Origin: Mesoplasma entomophilum
GTDB taxonomy: Bacteria > Bacillota_I > Bacilli_A > Mycoplasmatales > Mycoplasmataceae
Direction of reading: 5' to 3'
Assembly (NCBI RefSeq): GCF_002804125.1
Contig: NZ_CP024966.1
Coordinates: 62,001 to 126,000 of the forward strand
Length of the DNA: 64,000 nt
Shown here: positions 2,687 through 5,964 of the stretch, piece by piece
How positions within the stretch are numbered: position 1 is the stretch's first letter
How the letters are laid out: each line of letters opens with the position of its first letter
The notes under the pieces: model-generated
Database searches by the model: none
What the model saw: only the letters and a program-made list of their open reading frames with translations
What the model was told of the DNA's origin: nothing
Made by a program: the position numbers and the translations under genes

Positions 2687-2720
2687 AATATTATGAAAAC
2701 GACTGAGAGGTAATTTGAAA

Positions 2721-3521
2721 ATGTTGAAGGACAATAAAATTTTTGATGCACACATTCATTTTAATGATGATTATAAATACACTGAACAAATGATAGATCC
2801 AATGATAAAGGAGGCTATAGAAAACGATGTTGAAGGATTTCTTTGTGCAAGCTTTGATGTGAAATCAAGTCTTAAGGCAGTTGAGCTTTCTAAAAAATAT
2901 GGCGGCATTATTTTTGCCGGAATTGCGATTCACCCAAATGATGTTTCAAAAACAGATTTATCAGTTTTAGATACATTAGATGAATTAGCTAATAATAAAG
3001 AAGTAATAGCAATTGGTGAAACAGGTCTTGATTATTTTTATACTAAAGAAGATGCAGCGCTACAAAAAGTTTTTTTTAACAAACATATAGAATTGGCAAT
3101 TAAACATAATAAAGTTTTACAAGTCCATATCAGAGACCATGTTGATTCTTACGAAGCATACGATGATGTAATTGAAATATTAAAAAAATATAGTATAAAA
3201 AAAGTTGTTATTCATTGTTTTTCAGCAAATACTGAATATGCGCAAAAATTCTTAGATCTAGGTTGTTATATTAATATTGGTGGAGCAGTAACATTTAAAA
3301 ATGCCAAAGCACTTCAAGAAGCTGTTTTAAATATTCCTTTAGAAAAAATGTTGGTTGAAACAGATGCTCCATACTTAACACCACATCCTAATAGGGGAAA
3401 ACTAAACGAAGCAAAATATATAAATTTAACTGTTGAAAAAATTGCTGAATTAAAAAATACAACTAGAGAAGAAGTAATAAAAAATACAACTCGTAATGCT
3501 AAACTAATTTTTAATATTTAA
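2721..3521 (+). CDS. TatD family metal-dependent hydrolase (DNase), first of tandem pair
   Basis: TatD proteins are TIM-barrel metallohydrolases with 3'-5' exonuclease/DNase activity, linked to DNA repair and quality control. The protein has about 266 residues, the usual length. Metal ligands are visible in order: FDAHIHF at the N terminus, the Glu in IGETGLDYF near residue 100, His in QVHIRDH, His in VIHCFSA, and Asp in ETDAPYLTPHP. An in-frame TTG at 2715 is possible but only 4 bases from the AGAGG; the ATG at 2721 has better spacing. Gene 2 of the pair follows 45 bases later with its own ribosome binding site. Confidence 0.9.
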   Translation: MLKDNKIFDAHIHFNDDYKYTEQMIDPMIKEAIENDVEGFLCASFDVKSSLKAVELSKKYGGIIFAGIAIHPNDVSKTDLSVLDTLDELANNKEVIAIGETGLDYFYTKEDAALQKVFFNKHIELAIKHNKVLQVHIRDHVDSYEAYDDVIEILKKYSIKKVVIHCFSANTEYAQKFLDLGCYINIGGAVTFKNAKALQEAVLNIPLEKMLVETDAPYLTPHPNRGKLNEAKYINLTVEKIAELKNTTREEVIKNTTRNAKLIFNI

Positions 3522-3566: not shown

Positions 3567-4358
3567 ATGGCAGGAGTATACGATACACATTGTCACTTAA
3601 ATGACAATATTTATATTGAAAACGAAATTACAAGTGGTGAAATGGCATCAGAAGCCAAAAAAAGTGGTGTGGACATCATTAATAATGTTGGTTATGACAT
3701 CAAGTCATCAAAAGTTGCTTTAGTACAAGCACAAAAAAACAAGCATGTTTGAGCATTAGTTGGGATACACCCAACTAATGCACAATTCTTTACAGATGAA
3801 GCTTATAACACTTTAGAAGTGTTAGCTAATGCTGATAAAGTTGTTGGAATTGGTGAAACAGGTTTAGACTACTCAAGAGGTAGCGAATACAAAAATCAGC
3901 AAATTGCAGGCTTTACAAAACAAGTAAAATTAGCTAAAAAAATGGATTTGCCATTAATGCTTCATATTAAAGATATTGATGGATCAATTGATGCTTATAA
4001 TGATGTTTTGGCGATATTAAAAAAAGAAAAATATTTTAAAGCAGTTTTGCATGCTTTCAATGAAAGTGTGGAAGTTGCTCAAATGTTCATTGATAAAGGA
4101 ATTTTAATTTCGATTAATGGTCAAGTAACAAGAGACAAAAATCTTAAGAAAGTTATTGTAGATCTACCAATGAATAGCATTGTAGTTGAATCTGATGCAC
4201 CTTATGATACACCAAAACCATATAATAAAAAAACTAATGCACCTAAATATTTACCATTAGTTGTTGATGCAATTGCAAATATTAAAAAAATGAATAGATC
4301 TGATGTAGCAGAAATAACAAGAGATAATGCAATTAGGTTATTCTTTCCAAAAAAATAA
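3567..4358 (+). CDS. TatD family metal-dependent hydrolase (DNase), second of tandem pair
   Basis: This is a diverged paralogue of the preceding gene (263 residues), joined across one TGA Trp codon at 3750. The TatD ligands are kept: YDTHCHLND at the start, Glu in IGETGLDYS near residue 92, His in MLHIKDI, His in VLHAFNE, and Asp in ESDAPYDTPKP. The two copies share layout but differ at many positions, so the duplication looks old. RBS AGAGGA lies upstream of ATG, and a strong terminator closes the pair. Whether the copies divide RNA and DNA substrates cannot be read from sequence. Confidence 0.9.
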
Positions 4359-4384
4359 AAAACTTAGCAAAAGCTAAGTTTTTT
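4357..4384 (+). terminator. terminator after the tandem tatD genes
   Basis: A 12-bp perfect stem (AAAAAACTTAGC / GCTAAGTTTTTT, loop AAAA) starts inside the stop codon. Its T-run abuts the stop of the minus-strand metallothionein-like gene, so it may serve both directions. Confidence 0.9.
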
Positions 4385-4385
4385 A

Positions 4386-4496
4386 TTAGTCACAAGAACA
4401 CTCGCTCATTGTGCAATTACAATCTTTGCATGTGCAATTATCTTTTGTGCAACTAGCACAGTTACAAGTTTTACAAGTACATTTGTTATCTGTCAT
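4386..4496 (-). CDS. metallothionein-like Cys-rich miniprotein
   Basis: This 36-residue ORF encodes 11 cysteines (31%) at positions 6, 8, 11, 13, 16, 21, 23, 26, 28, 33 and 35, arranged as repeated CxC/CxxC units separated by Thr, Lys, Asn and Asp, with no aromatic residues. That composition is the hallmark of metallothioneins, which bind Zn, Cu or Cd in thiolate clusters. It is a real gene rather than chance: a perfect GGAGG lies 5 bases before ATG, and an extended -10 promoter and a 5' hairpin precede it. The divergent neighbour is a ribbon-helix-helix protein with a Cys-rich tail. It resembles no bacterial family I can name with confidence (SmtA-type proteins are longer and contain His/aromatics), so the function is inferred from composition. 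Confidence 0.75.
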   Translation of the reverse strand: MTDNKCTCKTCNCASCTKDNCTCKDCNCTMSECSCD

Positions 4497-4506
4497 ATAA
4501 ACCTCC

Positions 4507-4521
4507 AAGGAAATGTTCCTT
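4507..4521 (-). promoter_or_regulatory. 5'-terminal mRNA hairpin abutting the metallothionein-like Shine-Dalgarno
   Basis: AAGGAA and TTCCTT form a 6-bp stem with a 3-base loop. The predicted transcript start from the -10 element falls at about the first base of this hairpin, and GGAGG (4506-4502) follows it with no gap. It could stabilise the very short mRNA or influence ribosome access. Confidence 0.45.
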
Positions 4522-4556
4522 AATTTCATAATACCACGAAATTAAAATTATGTATA
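4520..4556 (-). promoter_or_regulatory. promoter with overlapping operator-like inverted repeat (metallothionein-like gene)
   Basis: Read on the minus strand, the promoter has a -35 TATACA (4556-4551), a 17-base spacer and an extended -10 TGGTATTAT (4536-4528). The 8-bp arms TTAATTTC (4520-4527) and GAAATTAA (4538-4545) form an inverted repeat centred on the -10, ideal for repression by a dimeric regulator such as the ribbon-helix-helix protein encoded divergently. Confidence 0.5.
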
Positions 4557-4584
4557 TAAAATATGTGTATATAAAATTTTTATG

Positions 4585-4590
4585 TATAAT
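4585..4590 (+). promoter_or_regulatory. -10 element for the ribbon-helix-helix gene
   Basis: TATAAT lies 19 bases before the ATG, with AAAGAGG between them. Upstream are two near-direct repeats (ATGTATATAAAAT at 4550 and ATGTGTATATAAAAT at 4563) that could be regulatory or just AT-rich drift. No convincing -35 is present. Confidence 0.4.
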
Positions 4591-4608: not shown

Positions 4609-4938
4609 ATGAAAAATAAAGAATTTGAAGTAGTAAATAGACTTGGTGGTAAACCAGTAAATATCTACCTAAATGATGAAGTATTAATAATGGAAGAATT
4701 ATTTGAAAAAAAATATAATCAAAAACCAAATAGATCAAAAATTTATAAAGAATATTTAAAAAAACAATTAGGTGATGAATTATTAATAAAAGCTAACGAG
4801 TTTGATAAAAGCAGATGTGATTGTTGCAGAGAAAGTTATTCGTTAGTTAAAAAACAAATGTATTTATGTAATGAAAAAGCCAATAAAAGAACATGCATCA
4901 TTTGTGATGATTGCATAACAAAAAATAGAAGTTTTTAA
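4609..4938 (+). CDS. putative ribbon-helix-helix regulator with Cys-rich metal-binding tail
   Basis: This 109-residue protein was not recognised as a named family. Residues 15-55 fit an Arc/CopG/MetJ-type ribbon-helix-helix: a short beta strand (PVNIYLNDEV) then two helices with an NRSKIYKEYLKK second helix. Residues 70-102 hold seven cysteines (70, 72, 73, 87, 96, 99, 102) as CDCC...C...CIICDDC, a plausible metal or redox centre. NikR is a known case of this fold coupled to a metal domain, although its domain is different. The ATG at 4609 is chosen because AAAGAGG ends 5 bases before it; an upstream in-frame ATG at 4582 overlaps the -10. It is divergent from the metallothionein-like gene and is its best candidate regulator. 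The function is inference. Confidence 0.65.
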   Translation: MKNKEFEVVNRLGGKPVNIYLNDEVLIMEELFEKKYNQKPNRSKIYKEYLKKQLGDELLIKANEFDKSRCDCCRESYSLVKKQMYLCNEKANKRTCIICDDCITKNRSF

Positions 4939-4950
4939 CTTCTATTTTTT
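4921..4950. terminator. bidirectional terminator between the RHH gene and hxlR-like gene
   Basis: A 13-bp perfect stem (arms 4921-4933 and 4937-4949) overlaps the stop of the plus-strand gene and the last codons of the minus-strand gene. A/T runs flank it on both sides, so it can act in both directions. Confidence 0.85.
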
Positions 4951-5247
4951 ACAATTTTTAGTTCCTCATTCACTCATTTGATCTAGTATAGGTTTTAAGC
5001 TTTCGCCTAAATCAGTTAGTGAATATTCGACTTTTGGGGGAACAACCGGATAAACCTTTCTTTTAATCAAATTGTTTTCTTCTAAAAATCTTAAATTTGA
5101 GGTCAATACTTTCTGACTTATTCCGCTTATTCTTTTTTCTAATTCATTAAATCGGCATGTTCCAAACGAAAGTTCTCTTATTATTAATATAACTCATTTT
5201 GATTTAATAAAATTCAATGTGTATTCTAGTGGACAAAAATGTTCCAT
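4942..5247 (-). CDS. HxlR/DUF24 family winged-helix transcriptional regulator
   Basis: This 101-residue protein belongs to the MarR-related HxlR (DUF24) family, usually redox-sensing repressors. It has the hallmark N-terminal [19 protein letters not shown], with the single conserved sensor cysteine at residue 5, the winged-helix core ([20 protein letters not shown] and [12 protein letters not shown]) and the wing ([12 protein letters not shown]). Two Trp residues are TGA-encoded, so the gene is invisible under the standard code. Bacillus subtilis YodB and CatR of this family repress azoreductase/quinone genes through this cysteine. Here the divergent neighbour is an azoreductase, so that gene is the likely target and the regulator probably controls itself as well. 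Confidence 0.88.
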
Positions 5248-5268
5248 AAATCCCTAACTTTCTTTTTG

Positions 5269-5299
5269 GTAAGTATATAACAATTTAGTGTGTACTTAC
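5269..5299. promoter_or_regulatory. operator-like inverted repeat between hxlR-like gene and azoR copy 2
   Basis: GTAAGTA (5269-5275) and TACTTAC (5293-5299) form a 7-bp-arm inverted repeat 17 bases apart. The left arm overlaps a minus-strand -10 (TATACT, 5277-5272) of the regulator gene. A further palindrome ATACATGTAT lies at 5325-5334 nearer the azoreductase. HxlR/DUF24 proteins bind TACT/AGTA-type dyads, which fits. Confidence 0.5.
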
Positions 5300-5364
5300 A
5301 TTTATACGCTCCTTATATTATTATATACATGTATGCGTTAAATACAAATAGAGGGTAAATAAAA

Positions 5365-5964
5365 ATGAAAAAAATATTAGTAATTAATGCTAGTGTTTCT
5401 CAATTAAACAATTCAGATTCGTTAGCAATGTCAAACATGTTTGTGGAAGAATACAAAAAAATAAATCCGAGCGATGAAATCATTAGGTTAGATTTAAATG
5501 AAGCACCAATGTCACAAAAAACATTAACAAGAAATAACATAAATGAATATTTTAACCATGAAGATTCATTTAGTTTCATAGAGCAACTGAAATCAATTGA
5601 TAAGATTGTTTTAAACTTTTCAATGGTTAACTGAGGAATTCCAGCAATATTAAAAAATTATATTGATCACATCACAATAGCAAACTTTACATTCACTTAT
5701 AAAGGTTCAACTGATGGTAATGCTATTGGTTTACTTTCAAATATTGAAAATATTCAAATCTTAGCAACAAAAGGTGGAACTGGAACTCCAAATTCAGCAT
5801 TTACTGAACATGTAAAAAATATATGAGAATTCTTAGGAGCTAAAGTCGAAAATCCAATTATTATTAATGACATGATGGATATTCCTCCTTACGCAGAACA
5901 AACACCTATTGCTAACTTAGAAAAAGTTAAAAGTGATATCTTAGAGGCTGCAAAAAAATTCTAA
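5365..5964 (+). CDS. azoR: FMN-dependent NADH azoreductase, copy 2
   Basis: This is the second AzoR-family quinone/azo reductase, 199 residues, the same length as the copy at 2037. It begins MKKILVINASVSQLNNS (FMN-phosphate loop), has NFSMVNWGIPAILKNYIDH at the FMN site with a TGA Trp at 5632, and ATKGGTGTPNSAF in the place of the other copy's ATQGAPKG. The copies are clearly homologous but diverged. The divergent HxlR/DUF24 gene 117 bases upstream suggests induction by electrophiles or quinones. The RBS is GAGGG. Confidence 0.92.

Follow-up and report, generated by a model that had tools for sequence, protein, structure and literature searches.

We identified, in a 64,000-nt stretch of Mesoplasma entomophilum DNA (hereafter the window), a 36-codon gene for a small, cysteine-rich, metallothionein-like protein (the MT gene), which faces a divergent gene for a candidate regulator with a ribbon-helix-helix (RHH)-like N-terminus and a cysteine-rich C-terminal domain (RHH-Cys). 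An operator-like direct repeat lies between the two genes. Together, these three elements would form a genus-wide two-gene metal-buffering unit, a proposal that we regard as reasonably probable on the strength of comparative sequence analysis. The features of the locus, in window coordinates, are as follows.

3567–4358, plus strand: TatD-family nuclease gene (tatD; PF01026, 5.6e-69), a convergent neighbour outside the MT unit.
4359–4384, both strands: hairpin (CTTAGC-AAAA-GCTAAG) flanked by A and T runs and resembling a bidirectional terminator, common to tatD (plus) and the MT gene (minus).
4386–4496, minus strand: metallothionein-like ORF (36 aa, 11 Cys, no His, no aromatic residues), found in all seven genomes of the genus.
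4502–4506, minus strand: Shine-Dalgarno (SD) sequence GGAGG, 5 nt from the ATG and invariant in seven genomes.
4507–4521, minus strand: leader hairpin (AAGGAA-CAT-TTCCTT), which abuts the SD sequence and whose first base is the predicted +1.
4528–4536, minus strand: extended -10 promoter of the MT gene, TGGTATTAT, with the pattern TG-N-TAnTAT in seven of seven genomes.
4549–4571, minus strand: candidate operator of two direct repeats, TATACACATA (4571–4562) and TATATACATA (4558–4549), with a 13-bp period.
4585–4590, plus strand: -10 box (TATAAT) belonging to the divergent regulator gene.
4609–4938, plus strand: divergent regulator candidate of 109 aa, with an RHH-like N-terminus and a seven-Cys C-terminal domain (CxCC...C...CxxCxxC).
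4942–5247, minus strand: HxlR-family regulator with an N-terminal Cys (PF01638, 5.1e-34; the nearest NCBIfam model, RrpB, is below its cut-off).

The MT gene was confirmed as a real coding gene. It runs on the minus strand from an ATG at 4496–4494 to a TAA stop at 4388–4386; a preliminary description of the locus had placed the ORF correctly but left its strand unstated. The encoded peptide is MTDNKCTCKTCNCASCTKDNCTCKDCNCTMSECSCD, and the ORF contains no TGA codon, so that its reading is independent of the genetic code. The product has a predicted mass of 3.9 kDa and a pI of about 4.9. An alternative reading, in which the frame is a chance ORF and not a gene, draws on the lack of a family match for the peptide, but when the 64-kb window was simulated 60 times with a Markov model, no ORF exceeded 7 Cys per 36 residues, as opposed to the 11 observed here. 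In addition, orthologues are found at the same locus in all seven Mesoplasma genomes examined, and the start codon, the SD sequence, the -10 element and the operator-like repeat are all kept across these relatives. The comparative data have already ruled out the chance reading, to which we give practically no credence. A longer reading of 47 aa (start at 4529) was also considered and rejected, since the ATG start would lie across the -10 box and is without a counterpart in several relatives.

The pooled pN/pS of the MT gene across six species is 0.11. Cys codons swap between TGT and TGC from species to species while Cys itself is retained, and each of the seven species encodes exactly 11 Cys with no internal stop. 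Even the most divergent copy (G002, 47% identity), in which an indel is accompanied by a moved Cys, still has exactly 11. To judge from these substitution patterns, the gene is under strong purifying selection. The existence of conserved-Cys orthologues and the absence of premature stops in relatives had been put forward as the deciding checks on this ORF, and both came out in its favour. A search of 53 further genomes from the family Mycoplasmataceae gave no copy of the gene, and none was seen outside Mesoplasma in wider sets of 320 genomes (order) and 392 genomes (a sample of the phylum); no relatives were found in viral contigs or plasmids. Weak matches in four genomes (G020, G105, G083 and G247) proved to be short pieces only, and Cys-rich frames near TatD genes in sister genera are unlike the MT gene and look like out-of-frame readings. 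The earlier suggestion of a buffer for very small genomes in general is too broad, as Mesoplasma alone carries the gene among the Mollicutes genomes searched.

The ribosome binding site, extended -10 promoter and 5’ hairpin that had been proposed for the gene are all present on the minus strand (4506–4502, 4536–4528 and 4521–4507, respectively). A spacing of 6–7 nt, used here to place +1, has been mapped in M. florum (PMC7745072), and the MT transcript is therefore predicted to start on the first or second base of the leader hairpin. The arms of this hairpin are nearly invariant in the seven genomes, but the sequence and length of its loop differ between them. The window contains a single copy of the inverted repeat (0.05 copies expected), and its folding energy alone is unexceptional (z -0.2 to -1.8). 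The hairpin may contribute to mRNA stability; alternatively, the dyad could be a protein site. All Rfam matches at the locus were far below gathering scores. The terminator-like stem is similar in relatives and is disrupted in G001. The locus goes unmentioned in the main texts of the M. florum omics papers.

By composition, the MT peptide falls within the metallothioneins as they are usually delimited (low mass, about 20–30% Cys in CxC/CxxC arrangements, few or no aromatics), having a low mass, a Cys content of 31% (five CxC pairs and one further Cys on its own) and no aromatics; the preliminary description had also noted the CxC/CxxC spacing and the lack of aromatics. By family, it belongs to none in Pfam or NCBIfam as judged by profile searches: PF00131 gave E 3 (8.5 bits, cut-off 23), the best match to PF12749 was sub-threshold (E 0.44), and PF02069 (SmtA-type) matched neither the peptide nor, even at E 0.1, anything in the seven genomes of the genus. 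No significant match was obtained in the Pfam, NCBIfam, PDB, plasmid or viral libraries, and the only PDB sequences returned were CCHC zinc knuckles (E > 2), which we set aside as compositional. A literature search on metallothioneins with Mollicutes, Mesoplasma or RHH proteins, which covered main texts accessible without subscription, found no description. Within the libraries and texts covered, the earlier impression of an undescribed-looking protein holds.

The peptide resembles eukaryotic metallothioneins (PF00131, PF12749) in its CxC/CxxC composition and lack of aromatics, which is probably convergent composition. The alpha domain of vertebrate metallothioneins holds an M4Cys11 cluster through 11 thiolates, the same number as in the Mesoplasma peptide, a coincidence that is suggestive only. 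SmtA-type metallothioneins combine Cys and His, whereas the Mesoplasma protein lacks His in six of the seven species. MymT of mycobacteria, which acts in copper detoxification, is likewise small and Cys-rich (PMC7387436), but it differs in regulator and phylum, and no MymT-like sequence was matched in the libraries searched. Elsewhere in the family, a genome of another genus (G009, L034:1486-1617, minus strand) encodes a 39-aa ORF, MNETSCTHCGVSMHPDEVVMVNDKPYCCQACARADGQVN, with a sub-threshold PF02069 match (26 bits, cut-off 33), which is another small metal-binding candidate.

A short, conserved and lineage-specific Cys-rich peptide could also serve as a metal-delivery chaperone, an enzyme-specific metal store or a modified, RiPP-like peptide. 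Against such uses, no modification-enzyme or transporter gene adjoins the MT gene, and the peptide is hydrophilic and has no signal-peptide-like stretch; we consider them improbable. A metallothionein-like function, by comparison, appears very likely from the conserved Cys residues, the low pN/pS, the fixed Cys count and the adjoining Cys-rich regulator candidate, and it remains the best reading of the gene, as originally suggested. The gene that faces it and the operator-like repeat, both overlooked in the preliminary description along with the strand, are the strongest evidence for function.

The divergent regulator candidate is present in all seven Mesoplasma genomes and was restricted to the genus in the searches made. 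Seven Cys residues in its C-terminus (C70, C72, C73, C87, C96, C99 and C102) are invariant in the seven genomes. Its N-terminus has the consensus VNIYLNDETLILEELFEKKYNQKPNRSKIYKEYLKKQL, in which a V-x-I-x-L ribbon and an NRS turn are invariant. An hhalign comparison of this N-terminus with NikR, CopG and Arc gave a score of 22.7 (E about 1e-4); as controls, the best of 200 column shuffles reached 17.9, and reversing the profile gave 8.9. The beta-alpha-alpha sequence pattern with its N/G-x-S-type helix cap is present. The NikR and CopG reference sequences were confirmed against the PDB. The match to the NikR profile is local, covering the ribbon and the NRS turn, and a Pfam search of the regulator returned no RHH match. 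The AlphaFold monomer (pLDDT 77; the other four models, 48–56) has a strand and two helices followed by a Cys-rich hairpin and a helix. A fold search with this middling-confidence monomer model gave no significant match and listed no RHH structure; RHH folds are intertwined dimers, which a single chain may not show. Taken together, these comparisons indicate that the N-terminus is likely a ribbon-helix-helix. PDB profile matches of the regulator to designed TIM barrels and other unrelated chains were confined to short stretches and discarded as noise. Weak matches in other Mollicutes (E 0.002–0.009) were also rejected: they were partial frames, several with stops, and those that were read had no MT gene nearby.

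The proposed protein is like NikR in joining an RHH-like DNA-binding half to a C-terminal half with potential metal ligands. NikR senses nickel through an ACT-like domain that carries a His/Cys site, whereas the C-terminal domain in Mesoplasma is Cys-only and about 40 residues long, and its likely target is an MT-like gene and not nickel uptake. SmtB is an ArsR-family winged helix; the Mesoplasma candidate, RHH-like with its seven-Cys domain, does not belong to the ArsR/SmtB family by the Pfam/NCBIfam models searched, which gave no ArsR match. The arrangement is nevertheless like that of the cyanobacterial smtA/smtB (bmtA) locus, in which a metallothionein gene and a divergent, metal-dependent repressor gene flank an operator (PMC7387436), in that the Mesoplasma Cys-rich gene diverges from a regulator candidate across an operator-like element in seven of seven genomes.

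This element lies in the 112-bp intergenic region shared by the two genes and has the consensus TATAyACATAwtTTATATACATA. In the seven genomes, 21 of its 23 bases are invariant, compared with 15 of 40 and 12 of 25 in the flanking spacer. Allowing up to three mismatches, each of the seven genomes has one such site, at this locus only; the G001 region contains three repeats, scored as two overlapping sites. Measured from the -10 boxes (4533–4528, minus; 4585–4590, plus), the repeats cover the -35 regions of both divergent genes. A protein bound there would be expected to block both promoters. Promoters of M. florum lack a conserved -35 (PMC7745072), so that the promoter itself does not explain the conservation of the repeats. 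The MT gene, the regulator gene and the repeat occur together in seven of seven genomes. On this comparative evidence, the two genes are a real, selected gene pair across the genus, and regulation of the MT gene by the divergent protein is likely.

RHH-like autoregulation of a small neighbour through repeats would also fit, in outline, a toxin-antitoxin-like pair made up of an autoregulator of antitoxin type (the RHH protein) and its partner (the small protein). We consider this very improbable: the genes are divergent and do not form one operon, there is a single copy per genome of the genus in a fixed place, the regulator bears a Cys domain instead of a toxin-binding tail, and the hydrophilic, Cys-rich character of the small protein sets it apart from known toxins.

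In G001, transposase-like reading frames lie directly behind the MT terminator region and extend the MT-tatD gap to about 1.26 kb. This insertion splits off tatD and leaves the MT gene, the repeats and the regulator gene joined, which argues that tatD is a neighbour and not a partner. Two tandem TatD paralogues, about 38% identical, are present in the window (2715–3521 and 3567–4358), and the pair is kept in many genomes of the family. On the other side, the HxlR frame with its N-terminal Cys is found in seven of seven genomes, although it is apparently shortened in G005. The enzyme encoded beside it (4942–5964 in the window for the two genes) differs, being an azoreductase in the window, G002 and G003 or a peptide methionine sulfoxide reductase-like (MsrA-like) protein in G001, G004 and G006, an apparent swap of stress enzymes.

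With its HxlR, azoreductase and MsrA-like genes, the neighbourhood looks like one of thiol stress. The MT protein could accordingly be a thiol or redox buffer, that is, an expendable supply of Cys thiols for use against oxidants and electrophiles, with the regulator sensing disulfide or electrophile stress. The HxlR protein comes closest to RrpB/RrpA, which are redox regulators, and retains its N-terminal Cys, and the azoreductase or MsrA-like genes next to it would equally suit a thiol/oxidant response. However, the HxlR gene has its own orientation and changing neighbours, and it probably forms a redox-response unit of its own. In the MT protein, the precise spacing of the CxC/CxxC motifs and the constant number of 11 Cys also speak more for a metal cluster than for a reservoir of thiols, and the CxCC...CxxCxxC pattern of the regulator resembles a structural or sensory metal site. 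We therefore regard the thiol-buffer reading as unlikely.

Metal buffering is also in keeping with the exporter repertoire of the genus. No member of the cation-efflux (CDF) family was found in the seven Mesoplasma genomes (14 of 14 in control genomes), and the heavy-metal P1B-ATPase model exceeded its cut-off in none of the seven, compared with 13 of 14 controls; two sub-cut-off matches, inspected over their whole length, are P-type pumps that lack the CPC motif. With no CDF and no above-cut-off P1B exporter, metal sequestration makes sense in Mesoplasma. In the mechanism we propose, the RHH-Cys protein would bind the 13-bp-spaced direct repeats and repress both promoters. Metal at the seven-Cys domain would weaken DNA binding, so that the MT protein is made. 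The 5’-terminal hairpin and strong SD sequence may favour a stable, well-translated mRNA, and the peptide, its 11 thiolates serving as ligands, would fold about a soft metal (Zn, Cd or Cu(I)) and keep it sequestered in the cytoplasm. We lean towards this full derepression model, with somewhat less assurance than towards its individual parts.

In conclusion, we see an even chance that the locus represents an independent reinvention of the smtA/smtB switch, in an organism without the usual heavy-metal exporters, by a metallothionein family confined to the genus as far as searched, an RHH protein with a Cys-only sensor that would constitute a previously undescribed class of metalloregulator, and a private single-site operator. 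The locus is small enough for complete testing, and its regulator/operator pair would be both compact and native. If the proposal is true, it would add to the Mollicutes both a family of metallothioneins and a metal sensor of a new type, and the locus would show a way in which toxic metal may be dealt with by a near-minimal cell that has neither CDF nor P1B exporters.
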